Notes: generated by a model not told the origin, from the sequence alone. Counted from the first letter of the stretch, positions 14,350 through 19,277 are shown. The stretch: DNA of 39,555 nucleotides from Deltaproteobacteria bacterium (GCA_016932595.1 JAFGCP010000309.1:1-39555), one strand, 5' to 3'. Translations and numbers: made by a program.

Positions 14350-14484
14350 GCAGAAAGTCAGCAACGTTAAAGCATAAAAACAGGTGTTTATTGTCTCAAG
14401 AAAACGATTGCCTGTGGCGATGGGTGCTGAAGCCGGCAGTTCAAATACTGCGTTTTTTTTGATTTTGTTTGCGGTGGGGCACAA

Positions 14485-14516
14485 AAAAAACCCATCCTTA
14501 TCTGGATGGGCTTTTT
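14485..14516 (-). terminator. Rho-independent terminator of the por/nuo-like operon
   Basis: Minus strand GCCCATCC AGATAA GGATGGG followed by TTTTTTTT. Confidence 0.85.
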
Positions 14517-14533: not shown

Positions 14534-16228
14534 TTATTTTATATATGCGACGTAGTCATCGCGGAAATGTTTCAGCGATGAGAGAACAGGTATGGGAGCT
14601 GTTTTTCCCAGTGCGCATGCTGAGGCGCTAATTATGGTTTCAGACATGTCCTGCAGCAGGGACAGGTCGTGAGCCGTTCCGCGGCCTGCAATAATTTCGT
14701 CGAGCATGGCGCACATTCTACATACACCTTCCCGGCAGGGGACGCATTTTCCGCATGATTCCTGAACGAAAAAGTCGGTCAGGTAGCGCGCTATTTTCAC
14801 CATATCCGTTGTTTCATCCATAATAACCATGCCGCCTGAACCAAGCATCGTTCCCGCGCTTTTGAGCGAATCATAGTCAACGGTGAGAGTTTCCAGGCTT
14901 GCTGGAATGACGCCTCCTGACGGGCCGCCGGTTTGTATGCTTTTGAGCTTTTTGCCGCCGTCGATACCGCCGCCGATTGTGTGTACAACATCTTTGAGCG
15001 AGGTGCCCATGGCCACTTCAATCATGCCTGCCCGGGTTATATTGCCCGAAAGGGACAGTACTTTGGTTCCTTTGCTTTTATCGCTTCCGATTTTTTTGTA
15101 CCATGCGCTGCCCTTGGCAATAATTACCGGCACATTGGCCCAGGTTTCAACATTGTTGATGCAGGTCGGCCTGGAAAAAAGGCCCTTTTCAACGGGGAAA
15201 GGAGGCCTCTGGCAGGGCTCGCCAATACGGCCCTCGATGCAGGCGATGAGCGCGGTTTCTTCTCCGCAGACAAAACGCCCGCCGCCTTCTTTAACTTTAA
15301 CCGCCATGCTGAAGGATGTTCCAAGAATATTGTCGCCGAGCAGTCCCAGTTCAGTGGCATCAGCTATGGCCTTTTGGAAGCGCTTCAGGGCTATGCGGTA
15401 ATTATCGCGGATGTACACATAGGCGGTACTGGCGCCGATGGCAAAGCCGCCGATAATGAGCCCTTCAAGCACAGAGTGCGGATCTGATTCAAGGTAGCTG
15501 CGATGCATGCCGATGCCGGGTTCTCCTTCACTGACATTGCAGATGAGGTATTTTTCCGGGCCGGCAGACTCGCGGCAGGCTTTCCACTTGAGGCCTGCAG
15601 GGAAGCCGCCGCCGCCGCGGCCGCGCAGCCCCGCATCAATAATATCCTTGATGATTGCTTCCGGCTTCATGGCAAGGGCCCTGGCAAGAGCTGCATAGCC
15701 ATCGCGAGCTATATATTCATAAATGTTTTCAGGATTGATGCTGCCGGCATTGCGCAGGATAACTTTGCGCTGCGCCTTCAGGAATTCGATATCATTGACT
15801 GACCTGACTGAAGCGCAGCCGCCTTCGTCAGCGCTGTACTGATACTTTATTTCACCCACAAGCGCATGGTCTTCACTGTCGACGCGCGCGAAAGCCATAT
15901 CCTCAACCACGCTGCCTGCTGCGACAGCATCAAGCAGCCGGTGTATATCCTGTTCTTTGACATTGCCATAAATGATTTTGGATTTGCCAGGCTGCTGAAT
16001 TTCAACGGTCGGCTCCATATGGCACAGGCCGGTGCAGCCGACTTTTGCTAGCTCGGCATTCATGTTCCGTGATTTCAGTCCGTACTCAAGCGCGCTGAGC
16101 ACCACGTCTGCGCCTTTTGCAATGCAGCAGGTTGACATGCCGACATTAATGCGCACTGTGCCGGGGAAGAGCGTTTTATTACCCTGTTCCTTTGCCTTTA
16201 CCAAATCTTCTGCCGTCTGTATTTTCAT
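14534..16228 (-). CDS. NuoF/HndC-like NADH-binding subunit with N-terminal thioredoxin-like [2Fe-2S] domain and no C-terminal ferredoxin domain
   Basis: GLRGRGGGGFPAGLKWKACRES...YLICNVSEGEPG...GGGRFVCGEETALIACIEG...ESCGKCVPCREG; ends at FRDDYVAYIK. Confidence 0.93.
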   Translation of the reverse strand: MKIQTAEDLVKAKEQGNKTLFPGTVRINVGMSTCCIAKGADVVLSALEYGLKSRNMNAELAKVGCTGLCHMEPTVEIQQPGKSKIIYGNVKEQDIHRLLDAVAAGSVVEDMAFARVDSEDHALVGEIKYQYSADEGGCASVRSVNDIEFLKAQRKVILRNAGSINPENIYEYIARDGYAALARALAMKPEAIIKDIIDAGLRGRGGGGFPAGLKWKACRESAGPEKYLICNVSEGEPGIGMHRSYLESDPHSVLEGLIIGGFAIGASTAYVYIRDNYRIALKRFQKAIADATELGLLGDNILGTSFSMAVKVKEGGGRFVCGEETALIACIEGRIGEPCQRPPFPVEKGLFSRPTCINNVETWANVPVIIAKGSAWYKKIGSDKSKGTKVLSLSGNITRAGMIEVAMGTSLKDVVHTIGGGIDGGKKLKSIQTGGPSGGVIPASLETLTVDYDSLKSAGTMLGSGGMVIMDETTDMVKIARYLTDFFVQESCGKCVPCREGVCRMCAMLDEIIAGRGTAHDLSLLQDMSETIISASACALGKTAPIPVLSSLKHFRDDYVAYIK

Positions 16229-16260
16229 TGTATTCCTCGTCAGTAACGCGGTTAATGCTC

Positions 16261-16920
16261 TTATGCAAGTGCCTCAATTTTGGCTTTTGCCTCGTCGCCC
16301 GTGTAGATTCTTCCGTCGATTTCAACGGCGGGGGAGCAGTCGCAGCAGCCCATGCACAGGGTTTTTTCCATGCTGACGGCCGGCGAAGCAGTCACTTTTT
16401 CTTCGATCTGCCGCGCAATGCCGTTTTTGTCATTGAGGTGGCAGGCCGTGCCGCAGCAGACTTTTACATGATGGCTTCCCGGGCGGGTGAGTCTGAAGGT
16501 TTTATAGAATGTCGCAACATTGTAGATGGTGCTCAAACTGATCCCTGTTTTGTTGCTTACGGCGCGCAGTGCTTCAACAGGCACATAGCCCACTTCATCC
16601 TGTATATCGTGCAGAATATACATGAGCTTATCCTGCGACGTGCCGTGCTTTTTGATGATCTCATCGATGACTTTTATGTCAAAATCGCCCAGTTCCTTGA
16701 ATTTTTTGAGAATGGCGGTTTTGAACGGATCAGGTACTATCTCCGCGACCACGGCTTTAACATGTTCCTCAAGAGCAGGGCCGCCCTGGGCTTTCTGTGC
16801 GATCACGGCAGACAGTTTTCCGCGGAATACTCCCCTCATCGCTTCAGGGACTTCGCCGAGCATGATTTCAAACATGGCTTCGCTTTTGCCTGACCAGGTT
16901 ATAGCTGTTGCCTCTGACAT
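16261..16920 (-). CDS. NuoE/HndA-like [2Fe-2S] subunit with an extra N-terminal helical domain
   Basis: LMYILHDIQDEVGYVPVEALRAVSNKTGISLSTIYNVATFYKTF...VKVCCGTACHL...CMGCCDCSPAVEI. Confidence 0.93.
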   Translation of the reverse strand: MSEATAITWSGKSEAMFEIMLGEVPEAMRGVFRGKLSAVIAQKAQGGPALEEHVKAVVAEIVPDPFKTAILKKFKELGDFDIKVIDEIIKKHGTSQDKLMYILHDIQDEVGYVPVEALRAVSNKTGISLSTIYNVATFYKTFRLTRPGSHHVKVCCGTACHLNDKNGIARQIEEKVTASPAVSMEKTLCMGCCDCSPAVEIDGRIYTGDEAKAKIEALA

Positions 16921-16965
16921 ATGAAACTCCCTAGTAGTGAATTATTTTGTTTCCGCGCCTTTTGC

Positions 16966-17688
16966 TCAGAGCGTTTTTTGAGTTTTGCTTTTCAGAAGTT
17001 CAAGGTTTGCGTTGACTTCTTCCTTCAAGGCAATGATTTTTTTTGCGCTCCAGCCGGCAAAGCGGGTCTGCGCCTTCACATAGCCCTCAACCGGCTGCGG
17101 GTTCGGGTCTTCACAGGTGATTTTATAGTATCCCTGGGCTATTTCATAGAGCGGGAAAACACGGCTTTCAACAGCTTTTCTCCCGACCTTCACCGTGTTT
17201 TCAGCCTCGAATCCCCATCCTACCGGGCAGGGGCAGAGGATATGCACAAAGGCTGATCCGGCGCAGTCCCAGGCTTTGCGAATTTTATCCACAAGGTCAA
17301 AGGGATGGCTCGGGCATGCTGTAGCGCTATAGTCGCAACCGCTTGCGCTTGCCACTGCCGGAAGTTTTTTCAGCATAACGGCCGTGTCAACCCTGCCGCC
17401 TGTGCATTCATTGTCGAAACAGATATGAAGAGCGCCCTCTTTTTTAGCAATGCTCAGCAGCGCAGGCTGTGAGCCTGCCGCAATGGCGCCGGAGTTAACA
17501 ATGATGCTTTCCTCCCACGGTATCTGCCATTTGGCCTGCTCTATATTCGCGCCGCTGCCTTCCAGCGCTTTGTAGACCTGACGTACGGCAAGTGCTACGC
17601 CGCAGCCTTTGCAGGCATTGTGACCTTTGGGCCCGAAATGCTCCTTGAAAGGCAGAAACTGTGCTGCATAAAGCGTGTATGTATCCAT
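16966..17688 (-). CDS. 2-oxoacid:ferredoxin oxidoreductase beta-subunit-like protein, short form (240 aa)
   Basis: GHNACKGCGVALAVRQVYKAL...CFDNECTGG...SHPFDLVDKIRKAW...HILCPCPVGWGFE...FPLYEIAQGYYKIT...VEGYVKAQTRF match PorB; GDG segment not seen. Confidence 0.85.
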   Translation of the reverse strand: MDTYTLYAAQFLPFKEHFGPKGHNACKGCGVALAVRQVYKALEGSGANIEQAKWQIPWEESIIVNSGAIAAGSQPALLSIAKKEGALHICFDNECTGGRVDTAVMLKKLPAVASASGCDYSATACPSHPFDLVDKIRKAWDCAGSAFVHILCPCPVGWGFEAENTVKVGRKAVESRVFPLYEIAQGYYKITCEDPNPQPVEGYVKAQTRFAGWSAKKIIALKEEVNANLELLKSKTQKTL

Positions 17689-18005
17689 TATTCAACCTCC
17701 TGCATGCTGACGGCGCCGAACCAGCACTCGCGATGACAGATGCCGCATCCTTTGCACAATTTGATATCAACATCATAAAACCCGTCTTCCTGCCGACTGA
17801 TGGCTGCGTCCGGGCAGTAAATATAGCAGAGTGCGCAACGCACGCACAATGTCTTGTCCCATACAGGGCCAAATTGCGGTTTGGTTCCCGGCGTATAAGG
17901 CTGCGCTTGCCCTGCTTCCAGCAATTGACAGCCCACTTTTTCCTGCTTGAATGTTTTGCTGATCAAAGTTGGGTCTCCTTTGCGATTTTGATTGTAATTA
18001 TGCAA
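17688..18005 (-). CDS. 2x[4Fe-4S] ferredoxin, PorD (delta subunit)-like
   Basis: CVRCALCYIYCPDAAI and CKGCGICHRECWFGAV; PorD-like DGFYDVDIKLCKGCGIC linker. Confidence 0.9.
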   Translation of the reverse strand: MHNYNQNRKGDPTLISKTFKQEKVGCQLLEAGQAQPYTPGTKPQFGPVWDKTLCVRCALCYIYCPDAAISRQEDGFYDVDIKLCKGCGICHRECWFGAVSMQEVE

Positions 18006-18076
18006 AATTATAGTTAATGAATGTGCTATGGCAAAGTATAAAATTAGATTGTAAGCTTATATTTTACCCCTTTAAT

Positions 18077-18353: not shown

Positions 18354-19277
18354 ATGAAAATAGTCATTGCAGGCGCCGGAGCCATGGGGTGTTTGTTCGC
18401 AGGCTTGCTTGCGGGATCCAGGCATGAGCTGTGGCTGCTTGAAAAGGATGCCGGGAAGGTGGATGCGATACGCTCTGCAGGGCTCAGCATAGAAATCAGC
18501 GGCGCTGAGCCGGCAGTCTCAATGCCCTCTATAACGGCATATGCGGGTGATGCAGGCATTGCTGATGTGCTCGTGCTGCTCGTGAAAGCATATGATACCG
18601 CAGCTGCAGTACAGGCAGCCCTGCCGGTAATCGGCCCACAGACAACGGTACTGACGCTGCAGAACGGCCTGGGCAATATCGAGGCAATCACGCGCGCTGT
18701 GCCGCAGACTTTGCTGCTTGCAGGAACCACGGCACAGGGGGCAACACTTCTTGGCAATGGCAGGGTGCGGCATGCAGGCAGGGGCGAAACGGTTATCGGG
18801 CCCCTTGTGCCGGAAGGGGCCGTGAGGGCCCATGCCGTGCAGGAGATTTTTCAGAGCGCAGGCATTCCCGCAACAGTGGCTGAAGATATTCAGCCGGTTC
18901 TTTGGGGGAAACTGCTGGTAAATGCCGGCATCAACGCGCTGACTGCAATCATGCGGGTAAAAAACGGCAGGGTAGGGGATATGGAGCCTCTGCAGGCTGT
19001 TATGCGGCGGGCTGTTGCCGAGGGGGCTGCTGTGGCGCAACGGCTGGGAATATCTTTGCCCTATCCCGATCCGGTCGTTCGAACGACGGAAATCTGTTGC
19101 GCCACGGCTGAAAATTTTTCTTCCATGTATCAGGATATCAGCTTGGGCCGGCGTACTGAAATCGATAGCATCAACGGCGTTATTGTGGAATACGCCAATC
19201 GTCTTGGCCTTCCAGTGCCGGTCAACTGCATGCTGACCCGCATGGTGCACGCTCTTGAATGCCCTTCTGTAAGCTGA
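18354..19277 (+). CDS. panE: 2-dehydropantoate 2-reductase (ketopantoate reductase family)
   Basis: MKIVIAGAGAMGCLFAGLLAG...VLVLLVKAYDTAAA...LTLQNGLGN...LWGKLLVNAGINALTA. Confidence 0.92.
   Translation: MKIVIAGAGAMGCLFAGLLAGSRHELWLLEKDAGKVDAIRSAGLSIEISGAEPAVSMPSITAYAGDAGIADVLVLLVKAYDTAAAVQAALPVIGPQTTVLTLQNGLGNIEAITRAVPQTLLLAGTTAQGATLLGNGRVRHAGRGETVIGPLVPEGAVRAHAVQEIFQSAGIPATVAEDIQPVLWGKLLVNAGINALTAIMRVKNGRVGDMEPLQAVMRRAVAEGAAVAQRLGISLPYPDPVVRTTEICCATAENFSSMYQDISLGRRTEIDSINGVIVEYANRLGLPVPVNCMLTRMVHALECPSVS

Follow-up and report, generated by a model that had tools for sequence, protein, structure and literature searches.

The closest described relatives of the operon considered here are the gene clusters PorG-PorD-PorA-PorB-NuoE-NuoF-NuoG, which have been named Por-Bfu and for which electron bifurcation has been proposed (Schut et al., PMC9304861). 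Their BfuBC core holds clusters B1-B5 and C1, non-bifurcating homologues lack B2-B5, and the B2 ligands correspond to C438, C/T476, H525, C531 and C536 of A. mobile HydB (PMC9304861). We analyzed a contig of 39,555 nucleotides from an uncultured sediment deltaproteobacterium (GCA_016932595.1, JAFGCP010000309.1; hereafter the window, with positions counted from its first letter), which carries a four-gene operon with the same relative order of PorD, PorB, NuoE/BfuC and NuoF/BfuB. The order is that of a Por-Bfu cluster minus PorG, PorA and NuoG (BfuA). Unlike the Por-Bfu proteins, the PorB of the window is short and has no thiamine pyrophosphate (TPP) site, and its NuoF lacks B2, B3 and B4 and has an altered NADH/flavin mononucleotide (FMN) loop. 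Because the related complete architecture already bears a name in the literature, the operon is a variant of it and not a wholly new kind of complex. The original prediction had proposed an undescribed complex; what stands of this is that the papers searched hold no description of a PorA-less Por or of a Bfu linked to geranylgeranyl reductase (GGR). Phenylglyoxylate dehydrogenase (PadEFGHI) likewise joins Por-type delta and beta subunits to an NADH-linked partner, and the window proteins match the PadF and PadI models weakly; Pad, however, has a catalytic alpha subunit, and of the 443 positions in the PadI model the window PorB spans only 305-438, the final third.

The genome to which the window belongs spans 3.87 Mb in 460 contigs, is 76% complete and is probably a metagenome assembly, as are the genomes of its relatives. 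All four open reading frames lie on the minus strand and each fits its named family:

14483..14510 (-): intrinsic terminator, 7-bp stem followed by T8 (stem CCCATCC/GGATGGG at 14510-14491)
14534..16228 (-): NuoF/BfuB-like FMN subunit (PF01512, PF10589, PF01257, PDB relatives)
16261..16920 (-): NuoE/BfuC-like [2Fe-2S] subunit with an extra N-terminal helical repeat (PF01257)
16966..17688 (-): short PorB-like subunit, 240 residues (homology to PorB/OxalOxredbeta models, AlphaFold model)
17688..17966 (-): PorD-like 2x[4Fe-4S] ferredoxin, ~92 residues (TIGR02179, both cluster motifs, placement of ribosome-binding site and promoter)
18007..18034 (-): sigma-70-like promoter TTGCCA-16-TATAAT, 11/12, by consensus match only

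The compact, co-directional arrangement claimed by the original prediction is borne out, with gaps of -1, 45 and 32 bases from PorD through PorB and NuoE to NuoF, as are the terminator after NuoF and the absence of PorA and PorG from the operon. The start of PorD needs correction: it had been placed at 18005, only two bases from the end of the promoter-like element at 18007, and an AGGAGA ribosome-binding site precedes TTG 17966. Both features favour 17966, which is probably the true start.

The short PorB is ~40-45% identical to Por-Bfu PorB over its C-terminal half. PorB and OxalOxredbeta models match only its residues 107-237 (the last ~130), and the Pfam scan returned no family and no TPP domain. 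Its AlphaFold model (pLDDT 83.5) finds its best structural matches in oxalate oxidoreductase beta (5c4i, 5exe) and pyruvate:ferredoxin oxidoreductase (PFOR); compared with these proteins, the short PorB is missing ~70 residues that bear TPP and cluster ligands. An alignment to full-length homologues shows CxGC and PCP retained but no NATGC, no GDGxxxDIG and, of DNEAYMNTG, no MNTG segment. Of the four cysteines that hold the proximal [4Fe-4S] cluster in the beta subunit of PFOR and related 2-oxoacid:ferredoxin oxidoreductases, three are left (C26, C29, C154), the NATGC cysteine being deleted, and C29 is Ser in two relatives, which makes a normal [4Fe-4S] cluster doubtful. We compared 95 PorB homologues, 62 with PorA in the locus and 33 without; PorA (PF01855) is absent from the window operon and from every one of these 33 loci. 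None of the 33 PorA-less homologues has the TPP motif or the third cluster cysteine and all 62 PorA-linked ones have both, a clean pattern among rows that share ancestry and do not represent 95 independent events. The comparison supports the earlier suggestion that the PorB-like subunit carries out no 2-oxoacid chemistry, of which it appears incapable. Compared with their counterparts in L053, the window's nearest relative, PorB, NuoE and NuoF show dN/dS of 0.07-0.13 (NG86), which means that selection maintains PorB despite its degeneration.

PorD scores 71.6 bits against TIGR02179 PorD_KorD (cut-off 60.05), which places it in the PorD/KorD delta family, and its cluster motifs CVRCALCYIYCP and CKGCGICHREC are intact. 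NuoE matches PF01257 (115 bits, residues 85-216) and carries the cysteines of the C1 [2Fe-2S] cluster of Bfu enzymes in CCGTAC and CMGCC. One or two N-terminal repeats of ~70 residues occur in NuoE of the window-type operons (T1) and of a second operon type (T2; both defined below) and in some T2 NuoF (L039, L041, L072); they resemble PCP_red by eye, with one sub-threshold Pfam match. The window NuoF consists of PF01512, PF10589 and an N-terminal 2Fe-2S thioredoxin domain (PF01257), and its motifs GRGGGGFP, CGEETAL and ESCGKCVPC preserve the FMN domain and the B1/N3 cluster of Bfu. Its best PDB relatives are NfnB (9n5u) and the bifurcating HydB (7t2r), and it falls below the cut-off of the complex I NuoF equivalog TIGR01959 (463.7 versus 558.65 bits).

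Genomes related to that of the window hold three types of PorA-less operon. T1, the window type, is PorD-PorB(short)-NuoE-NuoF, alone. T2 is small ferredoxin-PorD-PorB(short)-NuoE-NuoF-NuoG-GGR-like. T3 is (GGR)n-PorD-decayed PorB (~300 residues)-NuoE-NuoF-NuoG-ferredoxin-GGR. A scan with the single short PorB sequence of genome contigs yielded no relative, an alignment scan did find relatives, and a plasmid search returned only distant full-length PorBs. Full-length matches to the short PorB in a phylum-wide sample are confined to the window's own family and order; a scan of the genomes of 84,980 species found the short form in 14 genomes. It is present in 14/17 genomes of the class, the three negatives forming one family, and in 11/11 of the order, all of which carry T1, so that the conservation of the four-gene set on which the original prediction had staked its claim is observed. 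A second short-PorB set (T2 or a relative) accompanies T1 in ten of these eleven, the exception being the window's own incomplete genome. T3 occurs in several genomes, and pieces of it in the window's genome appear to lie on contigs C15 and C39. Its recurrence, together with purifying selection, makes the T1 gene set more than a chance association. The T2 operon of Prado146 (L074), a genome named Myxococcota, may reflect transfer or the NCBI naming of a related deltaproteobacterium.

The three types differ in the NuoF features tied to bifurcation. As the original prediction had noted, the window NuoF has no C-terminal ferredoxin domain (B3/B4): its tail after the N3 motif is 63 residues, versus 132-134 in full-length Por-linked and T3 NuoF, and it ends at the position of 7t2r_B residue 527. 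At the five B2 positions, C438, C/T476, H525, C531 and C536, it has D, I, Y and two absent residues. C438 is lost in every T1 and T2 NuoF that covers the position (Asp, but Asn in L063), H525 is kept in only two, and no full-length T1 or T2 NuoF has the C-terminal domain. C438, C/T476 and H525 are kept in all 6 T3 NuoF, including that of the window's own genome (L169), and in every Por-Bfu NuoF long enough to judge; full-length T3 and Por-Bfu NuoF also keep the CPAGVC-type motif and the 2x[4Fe-4S] domain. Because B2-B4 and this domain are lost, Bfu-type bifurcation is not expected of T1 and T2. The NADH/FMN loop is changed as well, from CNADEGDPGAYMDR to CNVSEGEPGIGMHR (the window sequence) or close variants, which are fixed in T1 and T2 NuoF. 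Several T2 NuoF (L039, L041, L072, L073, L074, L077, L078) have in addition lost cysteines of the N-terminal [2Fe-2S] domain, with for example GSNGMSW replacing GCxGxC, and T2 has therefore lost more cofactor sites than T1.

Dehalococcoidia and Deltaproteobacteria carry complete Por-Bfu-type clusters; the window's genus (L153) and order (L158, L159) are among the taxa represented. The T1 operons of the order form one group in both trees (SH-aLRT 96 for PorB, 100 for NuoF). When the NuoF tree is rooted with HydB (7t2r) and NfnB (9n5u), T1 and T2 stand apart from T3 and Por-Bfu, so the loss of bifurcation ligands is most simply read as the derived state. T3 shares with the window its class, the core gene set, the missing PorA and a PorB without the TPP motif; it differs in having the full bifurcation ligand set in NuoF, and NuoG and GGR-like flavoenzymes in cis. 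The lineage relationship and the losses are well supported. Direct descent of T1-T3 NuoF from Por-Bfu NuoF is a further claim that the tree does not support: the two fall in separate groups with weak joint support. One locus, L071 (G202:C571), combines a short PorB and an altered loop, SEGDPGIGMHK, with retained bifurcation ligands and C-terminal ferredoxin domain, and is an apparent evolutionary intermediate; L068, one of the ten second sets, joins it in a basal subgroup.

The sister operons point to candidate partners of T1, as T2 and T3 begin or end with GGR-like flavoenzymes. These proteins score below the cut-off of the geranylgeranyl reductase superfamily, and a model of the family best matches 3oz2, a GGR-like protein, with the GGRs 3atq and 4opl among the top matches. 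They number 8-24 per genome in all 14 class members with a short PorB and are absent from all three without. In a natural fusion of 957 residues (L174:698-3568, G205), a GGR-like flavoenzyme domain is linked to a GltD-like NAD(P)H module, which suggests NAD(P)H as a possible electron source for the family. The GGR of Methanosarcina requires a dedicated ferredoxin encoded nearby (PMC10821996). We also observe tandem arrays of 5-6 GGR-like FAD enzymes with MarR-like regulators, one in the window's own genome (L052:344-7229, C15) and others in L178, L179 and L180. Some arrays adjoin DUF1329, YCF48-like and GlcD-like FAD dehydrogenase genes, neighbours that suggest catabolism of some compound.

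On the strength of the adjacency in T2 and T3, the co-occurrence, the fusion and the ferredoxin-dependent Methanosarcina enzyme, we propose a route from NADH through NuoEF and PorD to GGR-like flavoenzymes. We regard it as about evenly balanced between right and wrong that the operon specifies a relative of Por-Bfu that transfers electrons without bifurcating them, from NADH to PorD and on to partner flavoenzymes. The four products would assemble into one complex, with the FMN of NuoF as the site of NADH oxidation. Electrons would leave through the N3/B1 cluster and the [2Fe-2S] clusters of NuoE and NuoF and reach the 2x[4Fe-4S] PorD, seated on a short PorB that would have exchanged 2-oxoacid catalysis for the role of a docking scaffold. 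PorD would then act in trans as the reductant of partner enzymes, the likeliest being the GGR-like flavoenzymes carried in cis by the sister operons.

Several points weigh against this proposal. T1 itself contains no GGR-like gene, and the partner is therefore assigned by association; the co-occurrence of GGR-like genes with the short PorB is confounded by clade, as the three negatives are one family. The passage of electrons from NuoEF to PorD is a step that we infer, the loop change in all T1 and T2 NuoF could mean altered nucleotide binding, and, in the absence of bifurcation, NADH (~-280 mV) donates poorly to a low-potential ferredoxin. In the principal rival, electrons flow in reverse: PorD would take them from a flavoenzyme or ferredoxin and NuoEF would reduce NAD+, so that the complex would act as a ferredoxin:NAD+ oxidoreductase re-oxidising a reduced pool. 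The same anatomy fits, transfer from PorD to NAD+ is downhill, and the GlcD-like dehydrogenase genes near GGR arrays in the order suggest oxidative catabolism; GGR-like enzymes are known as reductases, however, and direction is unreadable from sequence. We consider reverse flow possible, if somewhat unlikely.

A non-catalytic role appears unlikely. A regulatory or assembly pseudoenzyme complex with no catalytic redox function, such as a sensor of the NADH/NAD+ ratio, could suit the clear pseudo-subunit character of PorB, the changed NuoF loop and the extra helical repeats of NuoE, which suggest docking; against this, the FMN motifs and the N3, PorD and NuoE clusters are intact under purifying selection. 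We think it quite improbable that T1 bifurcates or confurcates with PorD standing in for the missing ferredoxin domain, as the bifurcating module of the original prediction would have it. PorD does supply two [4Fe-4S] clusters, and the ancestor probably bifurcated, since the full set of Bfu ligands survives in the T3 paralogues and in Por-Bfu. In the window NuoF, however, Asp replaces C438, Tyr replaces H525 and C531/C536 are missing, with C438 lost throughout T1 and T2 wherever the position is covered, and non-bifurcating homologues are reported to lack B2-B5 (Schut et al., PMC9304861).

It is very improbable that the short PorB assembles into an active 2-oxoacid oxidoreductase with a PorA or PorG encoded elsewhere: such genes exist in the window genome, but no PorA-less member retains the TPP motif or third cluster cysteine, and the remaining alphas are each accompanied by a beta of their own save one KorA at a contig edge. 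The check for orphans that the original prediction called for was made by searching the window genome by family for alpha and gamma subunits. Alphas lie in their own clusters on C357 (PorGDAB), C238 and C232, and Ior-type alphas on C378 and C68, the latter cut by the contig edge. The KorA on C152 is the one alpha without a visible beta of its own, and a PorG at the edge of C191 follows the end of a beta; each candidate orphan in this genome thus either stands beside its own beta or lies at the edge of a contig, and we rejected them. In the relative G104 (96% complete) no alpha is unpaired: of the four, one is a single-chain PFOR, two have a beta on their contig and the last is IorA-like and itself contains a TPP domain. 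T1 and T2 persist there in the absence of a four-subunit Por like that of C357. The picture in G133 (100% complete) is similar, except for a 589-residue alpha on C157 with no assigned beta.

Returning to the proposed NADH-PorD-flavoenzyme route, a class-wide history can be sketched around it, which we offer tentatively and at less than even confidence. PorA and the TPP site may have been lost as a GGR-like flavoenzyme took over as the enzyme for the third substrate in T3, which would still bifurcate and so drive the reduction of unactivated C=C bonds. The bifurcation clusters would then have been lost in T2 and T1, leaving T1 as a general electron hub for the 8-24 GGR-like flavoenzymes of each genome, with PorB as its ferredoxin-docking scaffold. 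Whatever its history, one lineage holds before-and-after versions of the same machinery—complete Por-Bfu, T3 without oxoacid catalysis but with ligands kept, and T1 and T2 with ligands lost—and paralogues of a single genome make the proposed need for B2-B4 in Bfu-type bifurcation directly testable. The operons also present a thiamine-enzyme subunit kept as an apparent scaffold, and point to an unstudied expansion of GGR-like flavoenzymes in sediment bacteria together with its likely electron supply. Automated annotation that goes by homology risks labelling the short PorB as the beta subunit of a pyruvate synthase and so wrongly suggesting pyruvate:ferredoxin metabolism.

In the window, an rpoD-like gene lies downstream, and an apbA/panE-like ketopantoate reductase gene (18354-19277) lies upstream and is divergent from T1. 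Both recur beside T1, rpoD downstream in 5 loci and apbA upstream in 7 loci or genomes with variable adjacency, and no other neighbours recur widely. Since the neighbourhoods of T2 and T3 contain neither gene, we rejected them as functional partners of T1, and their presence is probably shared synteny.

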